The notes below the pieces were generated by a model that did not search any database, was not told the DNA's origin, and saw nothing but the letters and a program-made list of their open reading frames with translations. The position numbers were made by a program, and so were the translations under genes. 27,072 nucleotides of DNA, taken from positions 1 through 27,072 of the IMG/VR virus record IMGVR_UViG_3300024520_000416; one strand, given 5' to 3'. Positions 2,156 through 13,709 of this stretch are shown here, in pieces. The DNA is from a virus. Numbering within the stretch: the first letter of the stretch is position 1; every line of letters begins with the position of its first letter.

Positions 2156-2483
2156 CCGCGAGCTAACGATCCCATCGCTACGCTTCCGAATCGAGAACGG
2201 CACCACGCTAGAGGAGGTCCGCATCGCTCGGGGAGAGGATGGGTACACCGCCACAGTCCGGGCCACGGACGGGCACACCGTGTCACCCTCAAGCCCCGCT
2301 AGTGAGCCTATGCCGATCTGCGTACCTGAGCCGCAGGTTGCGGGACTACTCGCGGGAGCGGCACTCGTTGCGCTAATCGCAGAGGTGCGCGGCCTGACAC
2401 GCCGAGTCAAAGCGAGCCGCGAACGACTAGAACGACTGCCGGCTCAGTCAGCAGCGGGAATCGTCGAGCCTTCGGGCAGGTGA
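2148..2483 (+). CDS. Hypothetical protein with one membrane helix and a VPEP-like motif
   Basis: A 111-residue protein. Residues 1-55 are polar and probably beta-rich. VPEP at 59-62 is followed directly by a hydrophobic helix (about 65-80) and then a basic RGLTRR (81-86) and an Arg-rich amphipathic tail. The order Pro-Glu-Pro, membrane helix, Arg cluster resembles a PEP-CTERM sorting signal. A true signal would be C-terminal and would need an N-terminal signal peptide, both missing here, so a simple membrane-anchored phage protein is more likely. The start overlaps the previous gene by 8 nt. The 3' end overlaps the last gene of the convergent late operon by 40 nt. Confidence 0.6.
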   Translation: MADRELTIPSLRFRIENGTTLEEVRIARGEDGYTATVRATDGHTVSPSSPASEPMPICVPEPQVAGLLAGAALVALIAEVRGLTRRVKASRERLERLPAQSAAGIVEPSGR

Positions 2484-2734
2484 TAGTTGTTCGTAACGGT
2501 GCCGCCGCCCGACATGTAGTCGCTAACGGCTTGGATGAGTGCTTGCCCGAGGTTGATCCCGAGCAGTGCGCCACCCTCCGAGATCTCCGCGCCTTCCATG
2601 CCTCCAGGCCCGGTGACATCACCAACGCCGGCATACAGCCCCCAATGATTCCCGTCCGCAGTAGCCTTGCCGATGTGGGTTTGGCAACCCGAGACCAGCG
2701 CAACGAGCGCCAGCAGTACGATTACTCTCCGCAT
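2444..2734 (-). CDS. Small lipoprotein, possible outer-membrane spanin
   Basis: A 96-residue protein with a textbook lipoprotein signal: MRR, a hydrophobic core, then lipobox LVSG followed by Cys17. The mature part is short, Gly-rich, with no recognised fold. It is the last gene of the leftward late operon, just after an HExxH protein and near a protein shaped like an inner-membrane spanin (3292-3681). By position and topology it could be the outer-membrane half of a two-component lysis complex, but it lacks the Pro-rich mature region usual for Rz1. A superinfection-exclusion lipoprotein is an alternative. Its 3' end overlaps the convergent early gene. Confidence 0.65.
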   Translation of the reverse strand: MRRVIVLLALVALVSGCQTHIGKATADGNHWGLYAGVGDVTGPGGMEGAEISEGGALLGINLGQALIQAVSDYMSGGGTVTNNYHLPEGSTIPAAD

Positions 2735-2743
2735 TCCGTCCCC

Positions 2744-3337
2744 CTAGAAGTTGTAGGCGATGCCCACGGACCTCTTTGAAATTGTTGGGTACACCCGAGC
2801 CGGCGCAGTGTGCCCACGATACAGCCGATACGCAGACCATAGCGCGTGGGAGGCTAACAGAGGAATGGCGATCTCACCTCGTCCACCGAGACGCTTGAAG
2901 TTGTACATATCCCCGTCCCTCCTGAATCCCCCGATGCCCGCCTCAGTCCCCACCACGTAAACCGCAGTGCATAAAACGTGCCAAGCAATGATACCAGTCC
3001 CCACAGCCGTACGTTCCTGGCCGAGCGCGAACACCAGCTCGCTAGCAACCGCCTGATTAGCGAACCCCGCCATGTAATAGGACGGAGTGCCGAGCCCTTC
3101 GGTGTGGACGTAGAGGAATCCATCTCTAGCCTGAAACCTCGAACTCTTCCCCCTACTCCACCCCTCGAAGAAGTGCCCCGACTCATGCGCTGCAAAGCCC
3201 ATGCCAACGCCTAGCAGGAATCCGCCACCCTTCTTAGCCCATCCGTCTGCCTGCGCTGTAGACGCGCAGAGGAGCGCTACAGCAACGGCGGCTAGTTCGT
3301 GTCCTTTACGTGCTTGGCGATATCGCTCAGTTCGCAT
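2744..3337 (-). CDS. Exported/membrane protein with an HExxH metalloprotease-like motif
   Basis: A 197-residue protein. Residues about 14-30 form a signal-peptide-like stretch ending in STAQADG. A hydrophobic Gly-rich helix (39-50) runs straight into H51-E-S-G-H55, the HExxH zinc motif, followed by FFEGW. Further hydrophobic segments lie at about 113-131 and 153-170. A conserved-looking AGFANQAVASE block (90-100) supplies polar and acidic residues that could complete a metal site, and the protein ends in aromatic Phe. HExxH inside or next to a membrane helix recalls site-2/M50-type peptidases, but no third ligand can be fixed by eye. The 5' end overlaps the 3' end of the coiled-coil membrane gene by 46 nt, a long overlap typical of compact lysis cassettes. 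The function is inferred only. Confidence 0.6.
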   Translation of the reverse strand: MRTERYRQARKGHELAAVAVALLCASTAQADGWAKKGGGFLLGVGMGFAAHESGHFFEGWSRGKSSRFQARDGFLYVHTEGLGTPSYYMAGFANQAVASELVFALGQERTAVGTGIIAWHVLCTAVYVVGTEAGIGGFRRDGDMYNFKRLGGRGEIAIPLLASHALWSAYRLYRGHTAPARVYPTISKRSVGIAYNF

Positions 3338-3681
3338 TCTACTAGGTTCTCTTTGCGGTAGCTCGGCCCCTTGCAGACGCGGGCGATCACCGCTGCCCTC
3401 GACTCCGCTTTGGCATTCTTGACCGCTTCTTTCTGCTTCGCGTCTGCTCTGTCCTGCTTCATCTCGCCGACCAGATCCTTAACGGACTGCTCGACTCCAT
3501 CCACCTTCTTCTCAATCTTGACGAATCTACCGTCGATGTACGCAAGGTGCTCGTCTTGACGCCCGTCCGTGGCTTCCACGCTGAGAACCCAACCTCCTGC
3601 GGATGCGGTAGCAGCAACAATTGCCAGCACGATTGACCACCAGTTGATAAACCGGCTTGGGTCCAGCTTCTTCCGAGCCAC
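3292..3681 (-). CDS. Single-pass membrane protein with coiled coil, i-spanin-like
   Basis: A 129-residue protein. A short basic N-terminus (MARKKLDPSR) precedes one membrane helix (about 14-34), then a long charged helical segment (about 45-97) with heptad-like spacing and a C-terminal region with two Cys. This N-in, C-out architecture with a periplasmic coiled coil is that of Rz-type inner-membrane spanins. Some phage membrane proteins of unknown role look the same, so the call is by topology and location in the putative lysis cluster rather than by sequence recognition. It starts 9 nt after the preceding small membrane gene. No Rz1-like lipoprotein is embedded in its alternate frames. Confidence 0.55.
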   Translation of the reverse strand: MARKKLDPSRFINWWSIVLAIVAATASAGGWVLSVEATDGRQDEHLAYIDGRFVKIEKKVDGVEQSVKDLVGEMKQDRADAKQKEAVKNAKAESRAAVIARVCKGPSYRKENLVECELSDIAKHVKDTN

Positions 3682-3690
3682 GTCGCCCCC

Positions 3691-3972
3691 CTATCCCAAC
3701 AAAGCCGCAGCGGGATAGATGAACCCTGCTGCAATGCAATGTGCTGCGTTCCATTCTTCTACCTGCTCGAGCGCGTGTTTCGCATTCCGAGCTGCCGTGC
3801 CTGCTGCTAGATTCGTCGCATTGATTACCGCCACGAGTTCGATTACCTCGTCAGGTTGCAGCCTGATCTGAGTCCACTCCAGCAAATACTTGAGCACGAT
3901 GTTGAGCACGAGCGTACTAGCCGCCGTGCCTCCTATCGCCCTCGGGTCTCGCGTCTCTGTATTCTCAGCCAC
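3691..3972 (-). CDS. Small membrane protein, holin candidate
   Basis: A 93-residue protein starting at GTG 3972, placed 8 nt after the sulfatase stop with GAGG overlapping that stop. A longer reading of the frame starts inside the sulfatase gene and has no supporting signal. It carries a hydrophobic helix at about 19-34 (STLVLNIVLKYLLEW), a mildly hydrophobic amphipathic helix around 43-58, and a short hydrophobic C-terminus (AAGFIYPAAALLG). Size, hydrophobicity and position beside a spanin-like gene fit a holin, but no family-specific motif is seen. Confidence 0.5.
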   Translation of the reverse strand: MAENTETRDPRAIGGTAASTLVLNIVLKYLLEWTQIRLQPDEVIELVAVINATNLAAGTAARNAKHALEQVEEWNAAHCIAAGFIYPAAALLG

Positions 3973-3980
3973 TCTGAACC

Positions 3981-5726
3981 TCAGTAGTTGGTTGGGGGTG
4001 GTGGCCCCTGCTTGTCGATCAATGCCATGCCGAACTGTATCGCGCTCAGTTGGTCGGCCGTTGGGGGGTCGGTCCAATCGGCTCCATCGGTCGTAGTTAT
4101 CACGCAGTCTGCTAGCTCAACGCCCGCCGCCAGAACTGTCCCGTATCGATTCGCCGCCGTTCCGTCGTCGTCCGAGTAGGCGAGGGTCAACACGCACTTG
4201 TAGGGGCTGACGGTCGTATCGGTGTAGTCGCGTTGCACGTAGTAGCGAATCCCATCTGTATGGTAGAACCACTCGCCGAACGTCACGATATCCCACTCAT
4301 TCGCGTCATCGTTCTCGGGGTCGGGTCTCTCGGCAATCGTGCCTGTTGCATTTCCACCCGTTGGAAACCAGCGCTGATAGCTGATATGCGAGCGCGATAC
4401 CGAGCAGTTGGCAGCCGTCTCCCCGTTCAGCGAAGTCATGCAGTTCCACATCGACTTAGAGGTCTTCGGTCTCGGGTCGGCGATACCGTGCGCGGCAAGA
4501 ATCGTCGGCATCAGGTCGCTAGCGTGGAACATCTGATCCGGCAGCATCACCCCATTCTCAACGCCACGCCCCGCACAAACCAGCGCAGATCGGATGCCGC
4601 ATGGGTAGGCGCTCTTCTTGACGAAGCCTGTACTGCACTCTGCGGAATGGATGTTGGGGGCCATCGCCTGCGCGGTCCCGTTGTCGGTCATCGAGCAGAC
4701 CACCGAATCAGACGATGAGCTAATCACCTGGCCATCATGAGTCTCAATGGCATCAATCAGCAAACCCTTCTGCACATCGAGGTATTCGAGCGAGGCTAGC
4801 CATACATCGCCCTCGTCATCTCCAGCAGTGAACGAATAGCCGGGGGGCCAATCGTGCTGGTCTTCCGTCGCCCCGTGGTCGGAGTAGTTACACGAGCCTA
4901 TAGCCCCCGCCCCCGGTCTGTTCGGTGCGTGCGTGATATTGTCCCAAACCAGCAGCACGTGAAAGCCGGTAGTCTGCGCTTCGATGTATTCGATCGCGTC
5001 GTCGTATATCTGCTTGCCGGTGTTCTCTGTGCTGAATGTAATAGCCCCGTCAAGCGTTGAGACGGGGCCGTAGTTGTGCCCCTTGCAATCGTCCCAAACA
5101 TTGACGGAGCCCGGCAGAACTCCCTGCGTGTAGTCGATGTTCCACGGGTTGTCGTCGTTGCCGAGCATCACGATGTTGGCCGTAGTGAAGCCAAGCTGTT
5201 TGATGAATGCGACTCCACTAGCAGGGTTGCTTATTTGGTCCTGCGACATATGGACCTTGCCGGCAAAGTACGTGCTCTTGCCGTTTGCCTCTAGCGTCCT
5301 CGGCAGTGTCGAGATGGCGGGGTTAGCAGACCAGTATGAGTAGTCATGGTCTGCGCGCCGCCCCGCCCCATACATATGATTGTAGTTGCCGACATCGAGC
5401 CCTGAGATGATCGACCACCGAGTAGGAGTACAAACCTGCGAGACCGTCATCCCGCTAACGACCATCCCCGCGTCTACAATGCGCGTCAGGTTTGGGGTAT
5501 CGACTCCGGTGTTCGGCGCAACGGGAGTAGCGGGGTCGGACGCATTGGCGAATAGTTCCTCCCCGACATCGTGCAACCCCTGAAAGTTCAAGGAGCTAAC
5601 GTCATCGTGCATCATGAGCACAAAGAAGCACGGCTTAGCCACGCAGCTAGGGGTAACGTCGGAAGCGTGCGCAGGCGCAGCCCATGCGGCTAGGAGCATC
5701 ACAGCTAGAGCAGTCGCACGATTCAC
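3981..5726 (-). CDS. Secreted sulfatase (alkaline-phosphatase superfamily)
   Basis: A 581-residue, full-length type I sulfatase that hydrolyses sulfate esters. Visible motifs: Sec signal peptide (1-22, cleaving near AHASD); metal-site D41-D42; signature C99-T-P-T-R103 followed by SIISG, where the Cys is converted to formylglycine; G-K157-V-H159, matching the family's GKWH block; H266 in THAP; D348-N349-G metal ligands; and HASDLMPTILAAHGI (401-415), the family's conserved C-terminal helix. It has many Cys, as expected for an extracytoplasmic protein. Start GTG 5726 has AGGAG overlapping the preceding stop. It sits in the late operon between a secreted beta-rich protein and the lysis candidates. 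Activity requires a host formylglycine-generating enzyme or anSME, none being encoded here. The substrate is unknown; sulfated polysaccharide is the natural guess. Confidence 0.9.
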   Translation of the reverse strand: MNRATALAVMLLAAWAAPAHASDVTPSCVAKPCFFVLMMHDDVSSLNFQGLHDVGEELFANASDPATPVAPNTGVDTPNLTRIVDAGMVVSGMTVSQVCTPTRWSIISGLDVGNYNHMYGAGRRADHDYSYWSANPAISTLPRTLEANGKSTYFAGKVHMSQDQISNPASGVAFIKQLGFTTANIVMLGNDDNPWNIDYTQGVLPGSVNVWDDCKGHNYGPVSTLDGAITFSTENTGKQIYDDAIEYIEAQTTGFHVLLVWDNITHAPNRPGAGAIGSCNYSDHGATEDQHDWPPGYSFTAGDDEGDVWLASLEYLDVQKGLLIDAIETHDGQVISSSSDSVVCSMTDNGTAQAMAPNIHSAECSTGFVKKSAYPCGIRSALVCAGRGVENGVMLPDQMFHASDLMPTILAAHGIADPRPKTSKSMWNCMTSLNGETAANCSVSRSHISYQRWFPTGGNATGTIAERPDPENDDANEWDIVTFGEWFYHTDGIRYYVQRDYTDTTVSPYKCVLTLAYSDDDGTAANRYGTVLAAGVELADCVITTTDGADWTDPPTADQLSAIQFGMALIDKQGPPPPTNY

Positions 5727-5737
5727 AGGTCCGGCTC

Positions 5738-7366
5738 CTATCGCGTGTAGCAGAGAGTTACGATTGCATTGTCAGTGCCGCCCGCCCCTACCGCAGTGAC
5801 GTTAAGCCAGACCATTTGATCGACTGCAATCGACGTGTTGGCTAGTGATAGATCCTCATCGAGTGTGCTGTCTGCATCGCAGGCGCTAATTGTAGCGATG
5901 GTCTCTGTACACCTGGCTTTCTCAAGCCGAGCTGCTGCGATAGTCGTTGAGCCGTCATCGTCGCAAAAGTTGTCAGGGTTGCCAGATGTTTGCGGAGGGC
6001 CGCCCGTGTCGTACAAGTTGACGCAATCGCACTGAGAGATGTCGAACGTCGCATCGCCTGACCCCACATCCTCGCAGAATGCATGAACGCGGGTCAGGGT
6101 CAGCGCATGGCCGGGGATCATCACCGGCGAAGTCTCAGAGCCCGAGAACCCGCCGAAGTGAACGGTTTCACATTGAGTCGTTCCGGTGGTTACGTAGGTG
6201 CCATTCTCGTTCGGCTCCGAGCGAGTGCGGCTGGCGTCAAGCAAGTCCATGTCCGTCGTTAGGGTGTACGTGCCGTTGTTCATCACGAGCACGTCCGTAT
6301 CTCCCTCGCCAGGAAACAGAGTCACAGGCCCATCATGCGCCGCAGAGATGCGAGTGTTCCATGTCGCCTTATCCGCCATGATGCCTCTGATTTTGAAGTC
6401 ACTAGCCCACGTTCCGCACGAGCCAGTACCGTCGCACTGGATCTGACCTTGCAACTTCATCGTATCGTGCCGATCTCCGTCGCCGCCGACCACATCGACA
6501 CCATTAATGACAAACGCCTGACCAGACAGCTCATCTTCATTAGCTGCCCAATTCTCACCGGCTAGCCGCCCGTTGTTGATTCCTGCCGAGGTGACGCCCA
6601 TTTTCAGATATGAGGTATCGCCGATGTAGGTACCACCTAGCGATGGGTCCGTCACAGCAAGAATTGCAGCGGTGTCGTCTGTCGCCCCCGTCGTGATGAG
6701 ATACCGACTCACTCCGTCATGGGTAACTGTCGCACTTGCGAAGCCAGCGCTAGCAGACGTAGCGCGTAGGGCCACTTGGATCTTCGCTGCGATGTCGTCC
6801 TCGTCTGAAATGCCTGCGGTAAAGTCCAGCCCAGACACGTCTTGAGATTCCGCATTGATCGTCACCTCAAATTCGCCGTCACTCACGCCTTGGAATGTAG
6901 CCACGCTACCAGAGACCTTGCCGAGCAACGTCGCCGAAGTGACAACGGCATTGGCAGCACCACCCGAAGTCAGCAGGGAGCTATCTGCGGCTAGCGTCGG
7001 GATCTCCCAACTACCGTCCGTATTGCACAGATATGCAACCTTGGGGGTGAGGTCGAATGAGGATGTGAAGATTGCAACGTCGTCGCCCGATACGCTGCAA
7101 CTATACCCAATCGTGTCATTATCAGTGAACACCCGACCGTTGCTGCCGTCGATGTCGTCCTGAAGAATCCGCGTCACGCCGAGTGTGGTGCCGTCGTAAG
7201 TCAATGACGAGTCACTACCAATAGAGCCGCTACTATTCAGCAGAACTTCAGTATCACTAGTGCCGCTGATATCAGCCGAGCCGCCAAGTTCCTGCCCTGC
7301 GCTACCCGCTACCGCAGCTCCCGCGTAAAACACGCAGAGCAGCGCTGTAAGAAATGATCTCATCAT
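5738..7366 (-). CDS. Secreted beta-rich protein with tail-fibre-like segments
   Basis: A 542-residue protein from ATG 7366 (a second ATG follows at 7363). GGGAG lies just upstream; an in-frame upstream ATG at 7399 would start inside the preceding gene. Residues 1-21 are a clear signal peptide (MMRSFLTALLCVFYAGAAVAG). The next part (LLNSSGSIGSDSSLTYDGTT) is typical of phage and bacterial tail-fibre-like proteins. A later block (EFEVTINAESQDVSGLDF, continuing to AAKIQVALRA) resembles the repeat found in phage DUF3383-type tail proteins. The C-terminal third is Cys-rich, suggesting disulfides outside the cytoplasm. A tail fibre with a Sec signal would be unusual. It could be a surface-displayed or secreted binding protein working with the sulfatase that follows 11 nt later. 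Confidence 0.7.
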   Translation of the reverse strand: MMRSFLTALLCVFYAGAAVAGSAGQELGGSADISGTSDTEVLLNSSGSIGSDSSLTYDGTTLGVTRILQDDIDGSNGRVFTDNDTIGYSCSVSGDDVAIFTSSFDLTPKVAYLCNTDGSWEIPTLAADSSLLTSGGAANAVVTSATLLGKVSGSVATFQGVSDGEFEVTINAESQDVSGLDFTAGISDEDDIAAKIQVALRATSASAGFASATVTHDGVSRYLITTGATDDTAAILAVTDPSLGGTYIGDTSYLKMGVTSAGINNGRLAGENWAANEDELSGQAFVINGVDVVGGDGDRHDTMKLQGQIQCDGTGSCGTWASDFKIRGIMADKATWNTRISAAHDGPVTLFPGEGDTDVLVMNNGTYTLTTDMDLLDASRTRSEPNENGTYVTTGTTQCETVHFGGFSGSETSPVMIPGHALTLTRVHAFCEDVGSGDATFDISQCDCVNLYDTGGPPQTSGNPDNFCDDDGSTTIAAARLEKARCTETIATISACDADSTLDEDLSLANTSIAVDQMVWLNVTAVGAGGTDNAIVTLCYTR

Positions 7367-7389
7367 AGACTCCCTTCTATTCGTCGCTA

Positions 7390-7794
7390 CTAGCCGCACG
7401 TGATCGAGACGGTTGGGTCAGCACCGCCGCCCTCAGTCCAGTCGATTCGTATGATCTTGTGCGGGTACTGTGATACGAGAAACGCATTCGGACTCGTGCC
7501 GGTCAGTGACGCAGACAGCAAGTCTTCAACCTCTCCGCATGAAGTATCCGTACAGGTCTGCGGCATGATGTCGCCACTGGCCCCGTATACTTGGATCACG
7601 TATGTGCGGCACTCCTGCAGCACAATCGCGGACGAATCCGCCGTGATGTCAGTGAGCCAGCAGGTTCCACCTTTGCGGATAGCTCCGCATGAGACGGTGC
7701 CTCCGTCCTCTGTCATCCAATCCGCCGCACTCGCCGCACCCGCAACGAACAGCAGCAGAAACGCCGTGGCTGTAATCGTGATTAGTCTCTTCAT
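7390..7794 (-). CDS. Small secreted Cys-rich hypothetical protein
   Basis: A 134-residue protein from ATG 7794, preceded by GGGAG. An in-frame start 42 nt upstream would put a polar stretch before the signal peptide and is rejected. Residues 1-24 are a signal peptide (MKRLITITATAFLLLFVAGA, then ASAAD). The mature domain of about 110 residues has seven Cys, probably disulfide-paired, and is predicted to be beta-rich by eye. Its end (DWTEGGGADPTVSITCG) resembles the end of the next secreted protein in spacing of Trp, Gly-rich loop, Asp and final Cys. It is the first of three consecutive signal-peptide genes. I do not recognise the family. Confidence 0.65.
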   Translation of the reverse strand: MKRLITITATAFLLLFVAGAASAADWMTEDGGTVSCGAIRKGGTCWLTDITADSSAIVLQECRTYVIQVYGASGDIMPQTCTDTSCGEVEDLLSASLTGTSPNAFLVSQYPHKIIRIDWTEGGGADPTVSITCG

Positions 7795-7819: not shown

Positions 7820-8320
7820 TTATGTAACCGACACATCGCCCGACGAATCGAACGTGCAAGAGGTTGAGATCCGATCTACTGAACTCGGTAGGTCCGTGTC
7901 CGTCGCCAGCGCATCGGAGATAGGCACCTTGAGGCAGCGGTTCACCTTCGCTTCGAGATCCTGAACCAGCATGGTTAGCCGGTCGAGTGAAGCTTCTAGA
8001 CTCGCCGCTGGTAGAATGTCGTTGTCTACTAGGTCGGTTGATTGAGTGAGTGGGATAGAGCGCTGAATCGTCCAAGTCATCGTTGAGGCGAAATCAGTAG
8101 CGCCATCGATTGGAGTAACCGTGCCAGTAGCACCCGTCGATGAGCCGCCCGTGATGTTGTAGTGCGTAGCGTCAACCATCGTGGTCTCTGCACCCGTCGC
8201 CGTTACGCGCTGAGTTACGATCACGTCGCTATCAGCGAAGTATTTGAACACCGTGCCAATCCCATTATTTGTACCGTCGCCGGTTACTATGGTGGGGGTG
8301 TAGGTGGATGAGATGGTCAC
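7820..8320 (-). CDS. Tail fibre N-terminal adaptor domain protein (T7 gp17-N-like)
   Basis: A 166-residue protein that follows the pattern of the conserved N-terminal domain of T7-type tail fibres: an opening STYTPTIVTGDGTNNGIGTVFKY-like beta strand set, a middle VDATHYNITGG strand, then TMTWTIQRSIPLTQ and a LPAASLEASLDRLTMLVQDLE helix that ends the particle-binding domain. Only a short tail (FDSSGDVSVT) follows, so no receptor-binding shaft or tip is present. The fibre is therefore short or completed by another protein. Start GTG 8320 shares one base with the stop of the upstream ejection-protein gene (TAGTG), with GGAGG about 9 nt upstream. Confidence 0.75.
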   Translation of the reverse strand: MTISSTYTPTIVTGDGTNNGIGTVFKYFADSDVIVTQRVTATGAETTMVDATHYNITGGSSTGATGTVTPIDGATDFASTMTWTIQRSIPLTQSTDLVDNDILPAASLEASLDRLTMLVQDLEAKVNRCLKVPISDALATDTDLPSSVDRISTSCTFDSSGDVSVT

Positions 8321-11300: not shown

Positions 11301-11547
11301 CTGGGAAATCCTCGAATATCGTTCCCTCGATATCCTCGAATGCGTCGAAACCGTCAGGAGGCGCAGCGTCATCCAATGGCGGTACATCGGCCAAGAAATC
11401 AAACGCCGCTACGACGGTGTTCTCTTGCTTGAATGCATCCTTCACCACTTGACCATAGCTAGGCCGCTGCGTTACCGAGGCAGGCGGATCGCTGCCGGGG
11501 AAGTCACTCCTTGTCGGAGATAGCGAGACTTGTTTATTGAGAGTCAT
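8320..11547 (-). CDS. Large internal virion/ejection protein (gp16-like position)
   Basis: A 1075-residue protein, the largest in the window. The acidic N-terminal 100 residues (repeated Asp/Glu/Phe such as FEDIEGTIFEDFPEDL) are followed by hydrophobic, Ala/Gly-rich segments around 115-230 that could be membrane-active, then long charged helical stretches, and a very basic C-terminus (KKRKRKRRSN). Size, alternating hydrophobic and helical composition, and location just before the tail fibre match the terminal ejection protein of podoviruses, which is delivered into the cell with the DNA. I see no convincing lytic transglycosylase or RNA polymerase motif. The start overlaps the previous gene by 4 nt. 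Confidence 0.65.
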   Translation of the reverse strand: MTLNKQVSLSPTRSDFPGSDPPASVTQRPSYGQVVKDAFKQENTVVAAFDFLADVPPLDDAAPPDGFDAFEDIEGTIFEDFPEDLIGVRTQDEKEAKRIDREEWLARHERLESAGALGYVATFAAGMIDPLIMMPIGGQIKAANATIAAAKLTRGAKAAEIAKVAFTGTAPAEIAGPLTSGISTARAAMIGASASEAVLQAAQDTRSLDESVLNVTASMFLGGMLGAGVGQMSRSSRRAVLKQINDDLGSAHLRGGSGTSHEVKLTEADLVQPTDGSSSGAEIKLQKAFGFERWSAMKGARVAISPFVRIIGGSHSNTMKKSVMELVDSPVRTTGAVSGSSVEAEILSTDALVFRMVKERDRLYTTYRARIAKESGKGGALVAEGGRLRRNVINATDIVTQRRKGTVILSPSEFNREAGASFRSRDSGIPEANEFGKMLDETVYKPMVKDMTDLGMMPEEVLAMGPKGARNYLRRVYNVTKIIAEEDTFKSQKIRPWVRSIISDEEINAILKQADLQGKTSGTGGLEKRTFTTEQSAAIDRAVDNHVHSIFENITTSTRGRIQYEQMPSGKGSPFKERALTWEDSFIEEYLEQDIEVLTDQYIRTMAPDIAIMRKFGSLDLHEQLEQVGREYADARAAAKTPKERAKIQAQQADDIEQLKGMVGLLRGTYGVPPMNNLVTAGRVVRAINFSSMGGGFGINSIPDLGMIPMRNGLVRSFKSGYIPFIRNLDSTKLAREELNLFGSAVDLAVDTRAKLVADIGTEFAQNRVEEVAQNVSRNFSIVNMLAPWNSIIKGIAGNVSMTRMIDTIIAEGTGTATAKDIAKLEFARLGPDIRAKIRAELLHGGGMTEADGLKWSNTLDWTDLEARQEWGRAVRFTVDNTILTPGAGAAPLWLSTELGRTVFQFQRFGFGATNTILLAGLQTADMATLNALAIMTALGMSVEWIKNQQNDRQNPETLGGWVEAGIDRTGALGVYGTMFNMGKIIAGREGMSSRYAARNLTSTFTGPTLGTIESAAKIVVGGAQGFSDADMRTVRRLTPYNQVPYLQAVFDQLEDGVSEALSLPKKRKRKRRSN

Positions 11548-13709
11548 GGTTCCACGATCCTGCGTGGCTTCTTGGCAGTCGGGACAGTGAGACCCGTTAG
11601 AGCTTCCGCAAATCCGGCGTTCTCTTCGGACCGTCTCAGCAAGCTAATGGCAGCGCGTGACGATTCCTTGATCTTCTGCCCTTCCTTCGCCTCCTTGAGA
11701 CTATCCGCTCTCCGCTCTTCAATCAGGCGTTGGTCATCGGGGAAGAACCGCATAGGAATGTTGTTCTCATCGAGCAGTTGCAACGTGTCGCCGCCATCAT
11801 CGCCGAGTAGGAACACGTTGTAACCAGGAGTCAGAGCGCCCGTGTCGGGATCGTGCTCGCGCATACTGTCTTCGTCAGCGCTTAGCATGATCCGGCTCGC
11901 AATCTCATCGGCGCCCAAGTCGGCTACTTCTGGAGTTCCGGCGAGGGTGAGATCCGCTACTATCTGCCGCGAGATCTCCTCGGAGTCGTTATTGAGCTGC
12001 TTGTACATCAACTCGGGAGCCATGTACATAATACGAGGCTCACCGCTGGTATTCGTTACGCCCCAAGAAAGCTTCATCTTGCTCAACGCTCGTTCGAGAG
12101 ACTTCTCGATATTCGGATCCAACGTGTGCTGCCGCTGCACCTCAGCAGAAAACGCCTTCTGCAATCCGGGCCCTATGTCATCGGTGCTGGGGTCGAAGGC
12201 ATACGGCAGCACAATACGGAACGCATCACTGTTCTTAACTAGCCAGTCACCGTCCCTCTGATCGCCCTGCAGAAACGCATGATGTTGCCTGCGCCCCTTT
12301 GCAATGTCGGGGCTAAGCTTCGCTATCTCTCTGGCATCGGATACCGCTTGCTTGACGGGGACTCCGAGCACTACCGACGCATCAACGTTTTCGAGGAATG
12401 TCGCCGTCTCGTCACCCATGCGCGCCGTGGCTTGTGGCGAGACGTTGCGCATCGCTACGAACAGTTCCGCAGCCTCAGCTACCTGCGTTGGTGTGCCGTT
12501 GCTGGTCTTGGCGCGTAGTTCCTTCTCGATGATTGAAGGCAACACGTCGATATCGTCTACTAGATCAATCTTCGCATCTCGCAGTTCTTCTGGCGTCGCG
12601 TCTACCAAATCCGGCAGAAAGATCTCTTCCATATACGCGTCAATGTCTTTCATGTCCTTCGGGTCGATGAGCAACCCAAAAGCAATCGAGTCGGCAACCT
12701 TCTGCGCCCCACTATCAGCGGAGCTTAGGCGGTCGATCCTTGCGCGGAATTGGTTATCAGCGTGGATTGCCTCTGATTCGGTAATCACATTGGACTCTGC
12801 CAGAGTGTCGATACTCGCCTTTGCCGCGAAGATCTCCGTAGGTGTGGACATCTCTGCAATCTGCGAAGTCATCTTACGGCGGCGTCCTGCGTTGAAGCCA
12901 TTAACCGCCTCCGACTGCTCGGCTGCCACATCTCGGCGCAGATTCGTACGCTGCGTGGATGTCAGGCTCGGAGTATCCTCGGGGTCCTTGAGCATTCCCT
13001 CCGCTGCAACCAGTAGCGCAATAGCCTCCTCTTCGTTGTCGGTCGCGTCTGCGAGGTCGATAAGACGCCGCACTGACTTGATATCGACGCCTGCAAGGAA
13101 CGCTTCTACCGCCGCAGGCTTATCCTCAGCGCGGATGATCTCCGAATCGTTTATCATCCCAACGCCGGACACAACGAGCCGCTCCTTGGCTCCTGGGGGC
13201 GCTATCACAACTGAATCGGACAGTTCCGAAAGGTTACTTTCGAGTGCAGCCTCACCAGCGGCCAGCTCACGCTTGAACTGAATATTTCCCATTGACGCAA
13301 GATGCGCGGTCATGAGCTTCTGAGATCCCTCCGCGTATGCAGCCCTCGCGCCATCGTCGCTAATGTTACGGCCTATGTTCCCCCTGAGTTCTTCTCCGCG
13401 AGCTTCAAACGTGCTGGAGATTGCGCCGATATCGTCCTGCTCTGCAACGTCACGTCCGAGGTTATCCAACTCCCGGCTAAACGATGTGAATGCGTTGTTG
13501 CGCTCTTCCCGTGCCCGCTGTGCTTGGCGAGCGGCCTCCAACTCCCGCCGGGCTTGGATTGTGCCGGCAACGTGCCTCTCCAACGGACGCACAGCACTCC
13601 CAAGTGAATCGCCAATCGACTGCCCAAGCGCAAGGGTACGCTCAGGGCTCACCGATGAGGTGAACTCAATCTTGCCCTGAACAGGTCGCGATGTAGGTAC
13701 TCTAGGCAT
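11544..13709 (-). CDS. Internal virion protein (gp15-like position)
   Basis: A 721-residue, predominantly helical, charged protein with long Ala/Glu/Arg-rich stretches (for example RRELEAARQAQRAREERN near residue 55) indicating coiled coils, and no signal peptide or obvious enzyme motif. In T7-like phages the gene between the gp14-like and gp16-like ones encodes the middle ejection protein that forms a periplasmic tube, and position and composition support that role here. The start ATG shares one base with the upstream stop (TAATG) and its end overlaps the next start (ATGA). Confidence 0.65.
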   Translation of the reverse strand: MPRVPTSRPVQGKIEFTSSVSPERTLALGQSIGDSLGSAVRPLERHVAGTIQARRELEAARQAQRAREERNNAFTSFSRELDNLGRDVAEQDDIGAISSTFEARGEELRGNIGRNISDDGARAAYAEGSQKLMTAHLASMGNIQFKRELAAGEAALESNLSELSDSVVIAPPGAKERLVVSGVGMINDSEIIRAEDKPAAVEAFLAGVDIKSVRRLIDLADATDNEEEAIALLVAAEGMLKDPEDTPSLTSTQRTNLRRDVAAEQSEAVNGFNAGRRRKMTSQIAEMSTPTEIFAAKASIDTLAESNVITESEAIHADNQFRARIDRLSSADSGAQKVADSIAFGLLIDPKDMKDIDAYMEEIFLPDLVDATPEELRDAKIDLVDDIDVLPSIIEKELRAKTSNGTPTQVAEAAELFVAMRNVSPQATARMGDETATFLENVDASVVLGVPVKQAVSDAREIAKLSPDIAKGRRQHHAFLQGDQRDGDWLVKNSDAFRIVLPYAFDPSTDDIGPGLQKAFSAEVQRQHTLDPNIEKSLERALSKMKLSWGVTNTSGEPRIMYMAPELMYKQLNNDSEEISRQIVADLTLAGTPEVADLGADEIASRIMLSADEDSMREHDPDTGALTPGYNVFLLGDDGGDTLQLLDENNIPMRFFPDDQRLIEERRADSLKEAKEGQKIKESSRAAISLLRRSEENAGFAEALTGLTVPTAKKPRRIVEP

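Follow-up and report, generated by a model that had tools for sequence, protein, structure and literature searches.

We analysed a 27,072-nucleotide stretch of viral DNA (the window; positions 1 to 27,072 of IMG/VR record IMGVR_UViG_3300024520_000416), in which three consecutive minus-strand genes encode proteins with predicted Sec-type signal peptides. These genes and their neighbours are listed from the tail-fibre anchor gene onwards.

7820..8320, minus strand: stand-alone T7/HTVC010P-type tail-fibre anchor, 166 aa, assigned by PHROG match and alignment
7390..7794, minus strand: P0001, 134 aa, Sec-type signal peptide, 6 mature cysteines
5738..7366, minus strand: P0002, 542 aa, Sec-type signal peptide, fibre-like start, DUF3383 stretch, 12 mature cysteines
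3981..5726, minus strand: P0003, 581-aa sulfatase, Sec-type signal peptide, PF00884 match, CTPTR at residues 99-103
3691..3972, minus strand: 93-aa protein encoded immediately downstream of the sulfatase gene, start inferred, no family
3292..3681, minus strand: 129-aa XhlA-like protein with one hydrophobic N-terminal segment, weak Pfam XhlA match (E = 0.088)
2744..3337, minus strand: 197 aa, signal-like start, HESGH motif, no family above cut-off
2444..2734, minus strand: 96-aa lipoprotein with an LVSGC lipobox, PF08139 match just below cut-off (E = 0.0012)

The frames of the three genes are open at these coordinates, and a Shine-Dalgarno-like sequence precedes each start. Their N-termini, MKRLITITATAFLLLFVAGAASA/ (7794-7390), MMRSFLTALLCVFYAGAAVA/ (7366-5738) and VNRATALAVMLLAAWAAPAHA/ (5726-3981), all combine a positively charged start with a hydrophobic core and small residues at -3/-1. 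On a home-made heuristic based on these properties, which is not SignalP, they scored 5.7, 4.75 and 4.96 in gene order; 5 of 20,000 random internal 45-mers from proteins of the same phage scored at least 4.5. Among 29 candidate genes of the window, scored with slightly different weights, the only other products that looked exported or membrane-anchored were those of 2444-2734, 2744-3337 and 3292-3681. The mature parts of the three proteins are rich in cysteine, with 31 in 1193 residues versus 34 in 5872 for 14 other late genes (Fisher P = 7e-9); the counts are 6, 12 and 13, the last made up of the catalytic Cys99 and 12 others. An earlier sequence-only reading had described three consecutive signal-bearing, cysteine-rich genes, and both observations are confirmed. 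It had also placed them between tail-fibre and lysis genes, which holds in part: the preceding gene encodes the 166-residue anchor rather than a full fibre, and the other side offers the weakly XhlA-like membrane protein and the lipoprotein but, within the window, no separate endolysin gene. The XhlA-like gene is probably of lysis or holin type. The lipoprotein, which also matched NF053612 (E = 1.7e-4, far below that model's cut-off), is possibly an outer spanin or an anchor lipoprotein. P0001 matched no Pfam or PHROG family, and we found no tRNA, Rfam match or excess of promoters or terminators.

P0003 matches Pfam family PF00884 (E = 4.5e-8, 33.2 bits, above the gathering score of 25), and solved arylsulfatases match it at E = 1e-4. 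In S1 sulfatases, the first residue of the C/S-x-P-x-R motif is converted to formylglycine. P0003 carries this motif as CTPTR, in which C99, P101, T102 and R103 are invariant in the alignment. All ten catalytic positions (D41, D42, C99, R103, K157, H159, H266, D348, N349 and K370), which we take to have the roles of their counterparts in human arylsulfatase A, are identical in two annotated bacterial arylsulfatases. P0003 thus resembles S1 sulfatases such as the arylsulfatase of Ruegeria sp. SCSIO 43209 (WP_152460732.1) in its length, CxPxR motif and ten catalytic positions, but differs in its sequence (~25% identity), its cysteine-richness and its tail-to-lysis position in a phage. No close relatives were found in 50,697 phage records, IMG/VR or GTDB genomes, a single-sequence AlphaFold2 model reached a pLDDT of 31, and no gene for a maturase (formylglycine-generating enzyme or anSME) was recognised in the window. 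Judged from its sequence, P0003 is a complete-looking formylglycine-type S1 sulfatase whose predicted active site is intact, and it is a plausible surface-modifying enzyme. The surface-modifying role proposed by the sequence-only reading, which had not recognised the sulfatase, gains support from this assignment. Alternatively, the sulfatase might be an auxiliary metabolic gene, exported to free sulfate or to open sulfated polysaccharide for the infected host. Sulfatases have already been listed among virus-borne metabolic genes: the accessible text of one study counts 13 on potential prophage regions (PMC11077953), and that of another mentions a sulfatase among such genes (PMC10029852). We consider this role quite improbable here, because a late position in the tail-to-lysis stretch, beside a fibre-like gene, would leave little time to feed the host, and because we recognised no further metabolic genes in the vicinity.

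The start of P0002 was judged fibre-like by eye, and its residues 143-250 match DUF3383 (PF11863, E = 1.9e-10, above the gathering score). No PHROG family matched P0002 with an E-value of 1 or lower, which leaves it without a fibre-family assignment. A search of the phage records returned no relatives up to E = 1, none was confirmed in IMG/VR, and a phmmer search of 13,929 open frames from fetched loci, including those of BcepC6B, PBR31 and MW202898, returned nothing at E = 0.05. Single-sequence AlphaFold2 modelling of its 542 residues gave a pLDDT of 32.5. The fibre-like features of P0002 would also fit a part of the virion, which speaks against a reading by secretion only.

The anchor encoded upstream matches the PHROG tail families phrog_13893 (E = 7.9e-16) and phrog_1640, and aligns with the N-terminal domain of the pelagiphage HTVC035P fibre at 36% over 166 of 166 residues. 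In the alignment, it ends at the point at which the fibre body of its relatives begins. The anchor ORFs of 80 IMG/VR relatives are all longer than 166 residues; the shortest (L022, 185 residues) is frameshift-like. No fibre body was recognised elsewhere in the window. Because the anchor lacks a fibre body of its own there, receptor binding may fall to one of the supposedly secreted proteins. It also counts against secretion alone that a receptor-binding protein is missing unless it is among these three.

The nearest relative that we found is L012/L194 (IMGVR_UViG_3300037245_000428), which matches over the internal virion protein with 615 bits; that protein alone, as an IMG/VR query, confirmed no close relatives. 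Straight after the L012 fibre lie two complete and one cut-off ORF that are signal-like and contain cysteines (scores 4.26, 4.88 and 3.16), just as such genes directly follow the anchor in the window. L012 differs in that its anchor is fused to a 493-aa fibre, its third ORF ends at the contig end and no sulfatase was seen. Its ORF at 11494-11973 is the positional counterpart of P0001, with a BLASTP match (E = 0.013) that lies mostly in the signal and leaves homology unproven. We surveyed 58 anchor loci followed by 600 nt or more of sequence, with a ribosome-site requirement and a signal threshold of 4.5. In two of them a signal-bearing ORF lies no more than 4 kb downstream: L012, and L024, in which the ORF is small and 1.1 kb away. 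The arrangement is therefore rare among HTVC010P-like relatives. In a further relative, L195, the fibre is 475 aa long, and a single 102-aa gene scores as weakly signal-like (3.85) in place of a run of three. The like-placed run in L012 supports the sequence-only reading. The three genes might be unrelated morons that came to lie side by side by chance, as our searches for P0001, P0002 and P0003 turned up no relatives with a common order or locus. Three consecutive signals, the cysteine enrichment and the L012 run argue against such an assortment, which we regard as very improbable.

Beyond these relatives, signal-bearing fibre-like proteins form a recurrent class near tail and lysis genes, exemplified by BcepC6B gp19, PBR31 orf035, Bcep781 gp49 and Burkholderiaceae prophages; P0002 appears to resemble the gp19 class only in kind, without sequence homology. 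The counts from one search query (A3) were biased, as the query extended over a signal peptide and had the signal among its patterns, and we therefore used a signal-free query (A7); 17 of the 18 loci that this found carry a signal-bearing fibre-like protein. The genes for BcepC6B gp19 (Burkholderia) and PBR31 orf035 (Xanthomonas) directly follow a T7-anchored tail fibre or tail spike and precede holin and endolysin genes; both phages differ from the window in that a full spike or fibre is also present and no sulfatase adjoins. Bcep781 gp49, from another Burkholderia phage, is a signal-bearing fibre/spike protein that is cysteine-rich (14 mature cysteines) like P0001, P0002 and P0003, but Bcep781 has a baseplate and tape measure, another fibre family and, as far as seen, no stand-alone T7 anchor. 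The premise of the sequence-only reading that virion proteins normally lack Sec signals finds no support in this recurrence beside tail spikes and lysis genes, and is no safe rule for virion-type proteins. Searches of the literature on tail-fibre signal peptides and phage sulfatases, with most subscription journals outside their coverage, returned no paper describing the class.

The N-terminal hydrophobic segments could, in principle, be assembly tags of ordinary virion proteins instead of export signals. That P0002 and the wider class contain fibre-like sequence would suit such tags, as would the annotation of gp19 and orf035 as phage structural proteins. However, the N-termini of the class follow Sec grammar: 36 of 36 have K/R near the start and 0 of 36 have acidic residues before the cleavage site, the latter result being partly built in, as the score itself penalises acidic residues. 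Their mature parts are also cysteine-rich with mostly even counts, unlike signal-less fibres that share a C-terminal domain, although P values for this parity overstate independence because related sequences inherit shared cysteine pairs. The sulfatase gene, too, has the same kind of start. We think that assembly tags are improbable.

We tentatively favour, with somewhat less than even confidence, a late Sec-exported cassette in which the sulfatase desulfates a glycan on the surface of the host or on debris and the fibre-like P0002 binds the same surface. The host Sec system would export P0001, P0002 and P0003 late in infection, a timing that we infer because the genes sit in the structural block. 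Signal removal and disulfide formation would follow in the periplasm, and Cys99 of P0003 would presumably be activated by a host formylglycine-generating enzyme. P0003 could then strip sulfate groups from a glycan carried by the host surface or lysis debris, while exported P0002, and perhaps P0001, would bind the surface that carries this substrate. Progeny might thereby escape trapping on debris or infected cells, and superinfection would likely be reduced. The export cassette modifying the host surface that the sequence-only reading had envisaged draws support from the three signals in a row, the cysteine-richness, the sulfatase and the L012 run, but not from its premise about virion proteins. 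If the proteins are exported, phages would use host secretion late to place disulfide-bonded enzymes and fibre-like proteins on and around the cell, an exported layer of phage–host interaction that is usually annotated as 'tail fiber'. The sulfatase offers a predicted activity that can be measured.

The exported proteins might also return to the particle. Here the anchor, mounted on the particle within the cytoplasm, would be one half of a split receptor-binding apparatus, which exported P0002, its disulfides formed in the periplasm, would join, with P0001 and a spike-like sulfatase, only when the compartments mix at lysis. This, the chief alternative to the reading that we favour, is possible though unlikely in our judgement. 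It fits the end of the anchor at the point from which relatives continue into a fibre body, and it fits the annotation of signal-bearing gp49 as the tail fibre of Bcep781. Similar arrangements occur elsewhere. MW202898.1 (Podoviridae sp. ct8d5349, Manatee Spring) encodes a 305-aa T7-type anchor and, after it, a fibre-like protein of 906 aa with a signal, but differs from the window in having one signal-bearing protein only, with 5 mature cysteines, and no enzyme. L175/L093 encode a 249-aa protein, then a signal-bearing spike-like protein and then a signal-bearing fibre-like protein, and in L101, L102, L132, L158 and L160 a gene of 111-145 aa, anchor-like by eye only, precedes a signal-bearing fibre. 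Signal thresholds varied among these surveys (3.9 for L175/L093, 3.8 and 4.2 for the short-anchor loci, 4.2 also for a survey of the wider class, 4.5 for the random background). On the other side, no tailed phage is known to us to attach Sec-exported fibres once the cell has lysed. The L012 anchor has a normal fused fibre and yet signal-bearing genes follow it, BcepC6B and PBR31 retain full spikes or fibres besides their signal-bearing protein, and the window's contig may be a fragment, so that a fibre may be encoded elsewhere. A broader proposal, which we find rather unlikely, is that some tailed phages assemble the anchor in the cytoplasm and fit a Sec-exported fibre or enzymatic spike, disulfide-bonded in the periplasm, at or after lysis. 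Under this proposal the window would stand at the extreme, its entire receptor-binding end having shifted to export. If the proteins do end on the particle, tail assembly would not be confined to the cytoplasm.

A late exported cassette, the reading that we favour, would have parallels in other phage proteins. Receptor-blocking lipoproteins are exported phage proteins that act at the host surface. They and lambda Lom would share this site of action with P0001, P0002 and P0003, but are lipoproteins or membrane proteins rather than enzymes or fibre-like proteins. The accessible text of PMC12309495 describes Lom as a phage-encoded outer-membrane protein. In MW202485, a GDSL esterase without a signal occupies a place comparable to that of the window's sulfatase, and an SGNH esterase in a comparable place in PBR31 is given an N-terminal signal peptide by the authors in the accessible text of their report (PMC10975493). 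The record of Bcep781 gp49 itself notes a 'possible signal peptide domain', so that the signal of this protein had been noticed before.

We found that the window has three signal-bearing genes where the body of a tail fibre would be. The gene preceding them encodes a stand-alone N-terminal attachment domain of T7-type fibres (the anchor):

8320-7820, minus strand: anchor, 166 aa
7794-7390, minus strand: P0001, 134 aa
7366-5738, minus strand: P0002, 542 aa
5726-3981, minus strand: P0003, 581 aa

The anchor matches phrog_13893 (E 7.9e-16) and is 36% identical to HTVC035P across all 166 residues. Alignment showed that it ends where the fibre body starts in relatives, whereas the anchor ORF runs on to 185-1374 residues in 80 IMG/VR loci found with the anchor as query, several of them cut by contig ends; the window's anchor therefore lacks a fibre body. 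The shortest of these 80 ORFs (185 residues) looks like a frameshift.

P0001, P0002 and P0003 are arranged head to tail with gaps of 23 and 11 bases. Their signal-including starts are supported by the Shine-Dalgarno-like sequence that precedes each (GGGAG, AAGGGAG and AGGAG, respectively). On a home-made Sec score they reached 5.7, 4.75 and 4.96; of 20,000 45-mers drawn at random from inside the proteins of this proteome, 5 scored at least 4.5. Their mature parts contain 31 Cys in 1193 residues, compared with 34 in 5872 for 14 other late genes (P 7e-9); Cys is absent from all 1796 residues of the two large internal virion proteins.

By its sequence, P0003 is a sulfatase. Pfam PF00884 covers residues 76-410 (E 4.5e-8, exceeding the curated cut-off), solved arylsulfatases match at E 1e-4, and alignment with two annotated bacterial arylsulfatases gave 24-25% identity. 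Ten positions are invariant among these three proteins (D41, D42, C99, R103, K157, H159, H266, D348, N349 and K370), and these are the ten catalytic positions of human arylsulfatase A. The motif CTPTR conforms to the formylglycine rule CxPxR, so a host maturase would be required; no maturase gene was recognised within the window. P0002 contains a DUF3383 stretch at residues 143-250 (E 1.9e-10), and what follows its signal looks by eye like the start of a fibre, with a run such as VLLNSSGSIGSDSSLTYDGTTLGV. P0002 matched no PHROG family and, among solved structures, nothing at E below 0.8; family searches with P0001 gave no match of note. We consider it likely that all three proteins are exported, the most probable job being that of a sulfatase that would act on glycans of the surface or debris; this reading as a whole we place a little short of an even chance.

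Sulfatases are mentioned among virus-borne metabolic genes in passages of two papers (PMC11077953, PMC10029852), and a passage of a third (PMC10232697) mentions Pseudoalteromonas phages with a formylglycine-generating enzyme. Our literature search on sulfatases in phages found no paper describing one in a tail-to-lysis block. With a bacterial arylsulfatase as query, 30 of 50,697 phage records gave a match, many unannotated or, in our judgement, of doubtful phage origin; P0003 as query matched none. Campylobacter phages A11a and A18a (MG065691.1, MG065686.1; 174-kb records) have a near full-length sulfatase-like match (E 1e-14).

The closest relative found, a 14-kb contig (L012/L194; 615 bits, 39% identity over an internal virion protein), has its anchor fused to a 493-residue fibre. 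Directly after this fibre lie three signal-like ORFs of 159, 136 and at least 92 aa, the last truncated where the contig stops; their Sec scores are 4.26, 4.88 and 3.16, and the first two have 6 and 4 mature Cys, respectively. When P0001 was compared with the 159-aa protein alone, the match (E 0.013) lay mainly in the signal and does not suffice to establish homology. In L195, a third relative, the fibre has 475 aa and just one gene is weakly signal-like. Few HTVC010P-like loci carry signal-bearing genes close to the fibre (2 of 58, counting L012).

Signal-bearing fibre-like proteins also occur in other phages. In MW202898 (906 aa) and BcepC6B (gp19; 357 aa, named tail fiber protein in the deposited record), one lies directly downstream of a related anchor. 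A gp19 query retrieved Xanthomonas PBR31 orf035 (58% identity, signal present, between tail spike and holin), and fibres of Pectobacterium and Klebsiella phages share the gp19 C-terminal domain. An IMG/VR search kept 80 loci, with one dropped for a missing 5' end. Signal-like starts (score at least 3.8) were found in 34 of 36 loci whose match includes the N-terminal part, starting no later than query residue 54, and in 4 of 43 matching only further in. Because this query itself contained a signal, we repeated the search in GTDB genomes with mature N-termini only. This yielded 18 loci, all Burkholderiaceae; in 17 the motif is immediately preceded by a signal-like start in the same frame, and the 18th has only four residues of upstream frame. 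P0002 has no detectable sequence relationship to this class and resembles it in kind only.

Ten upstream neighbours were picked by length from 54; nine have matches in families of tail proteins, fibres or spikes, and four of these (L180, L186, L187 and L094) begin with the window's T7-type anchor families. Three of ten downstream neighbours are endolysin-like; in other prophages of the class, judged by eye, the gene follows an endolysin-like gene. In prophage loci L175 (5744-8846) and L093 (3804-6906), an anchor-like 249-aa protein is followed by a signal-bearing spike-like protein, a signal-bearing fibre-like protein and a 591-aa protein whose start is hydrophobic. In L101, L102, L132, L158 and L160, short anchor-like genes (111-145 aa) directly precede fibre-like proteins that start GTYPSPT/QSYPSPT after the signal. 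In L105, L107, L128, L135, L140, L153 and L193, small adaptor-like genes, which have in common a C-terminus of the type LDxxFxLDxSTL, overlap a signal-bearing fibre gene of the QFTPGQ type by 4 bases.

Cys content and parity would be an independent sign of export of this class. Cys made up 97 of 11,654 mature residues in 36 non-redundant signal-bearing proteins and 39 of 14,852 in the 36 signal-less proteins, likewise non-redundant, that this search also gave (P 1.6e-10). Among proteins with any Cys, the number was even in 27 of the 32 with a signal and in 6 of the 21 without (P 9.5e-5); both P values are weakened by shared descent. The GTDB set gave even numbers in 14 of 16 such signal-bearing proteins. 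Two proteins depart from this pattern: that of MW202898, with 5 mature Cys, and the spike-like one of L175, with 3.

In the strongest rival to export with a glycan-directed sulfatase, a rival that we consider rather unlikely, the exported fibre-like protein would supply the receptor-binding end that is missing and would attach to the stand-alone anchor once lysis has occurred. Such anchors in the window and MW202898, and by eye only in several other loci, favour this, but L012, BcepC6B and PBR31 also have complete fibres or spikes, which argues against post-lysis joining as a general rule.

Annotators have seen single cases of the class, since the Bcep781 record carries the remark 'possible tail fiber; possible signal peptide domain' for gp49, whose signal is clear and whose mature part contains 14 Cys. 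A literature search on signal peptides or sequences on tail fibres found no paper treating the class. The PBR31 authors assign a signal to gp40, an SGNH esterase, in passages that do not mention that of orf035 (PMC10975493).

The window is the entire virus record (27,072 bases), and PHROG and family matches identified a podovirus structural block on its minus strand. Further features are:

left end, plus strand: recombination-type exonuclease and AAA protein
structural block, minus strand: terminase small and large subunits, head-tail adaptor, scaffold or protease-like protein, major head protein, tail tubular proteins, internal virion proteins
2744-3337, minus strand: 197-aa protein near the lysis genes with a signal-like start, HESGH (HExxH) motif and more hydrophobic segments
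2444-2734, minus strand: lipoprotein, lipobox LVSGC

The 197-aa protein, with no family match above cut-off, is possibly a small membrane metalloprotease, and the lipoprotein may be an outer spanin or an anchor lipoprotein. Within the window, no gene for a separate endolysin was recognised. By internal virion protein, the nearest named phages are podoviruses, namely MW202485 from Manatee Spring (27% identity) and phages of Vibrio, enterobacteria and pelagibacter. The best segment of a second IMG/VR contig (L005), over the tail tubular protein, is 100% identical to the window's, so this virus has probably been assembled more than once.
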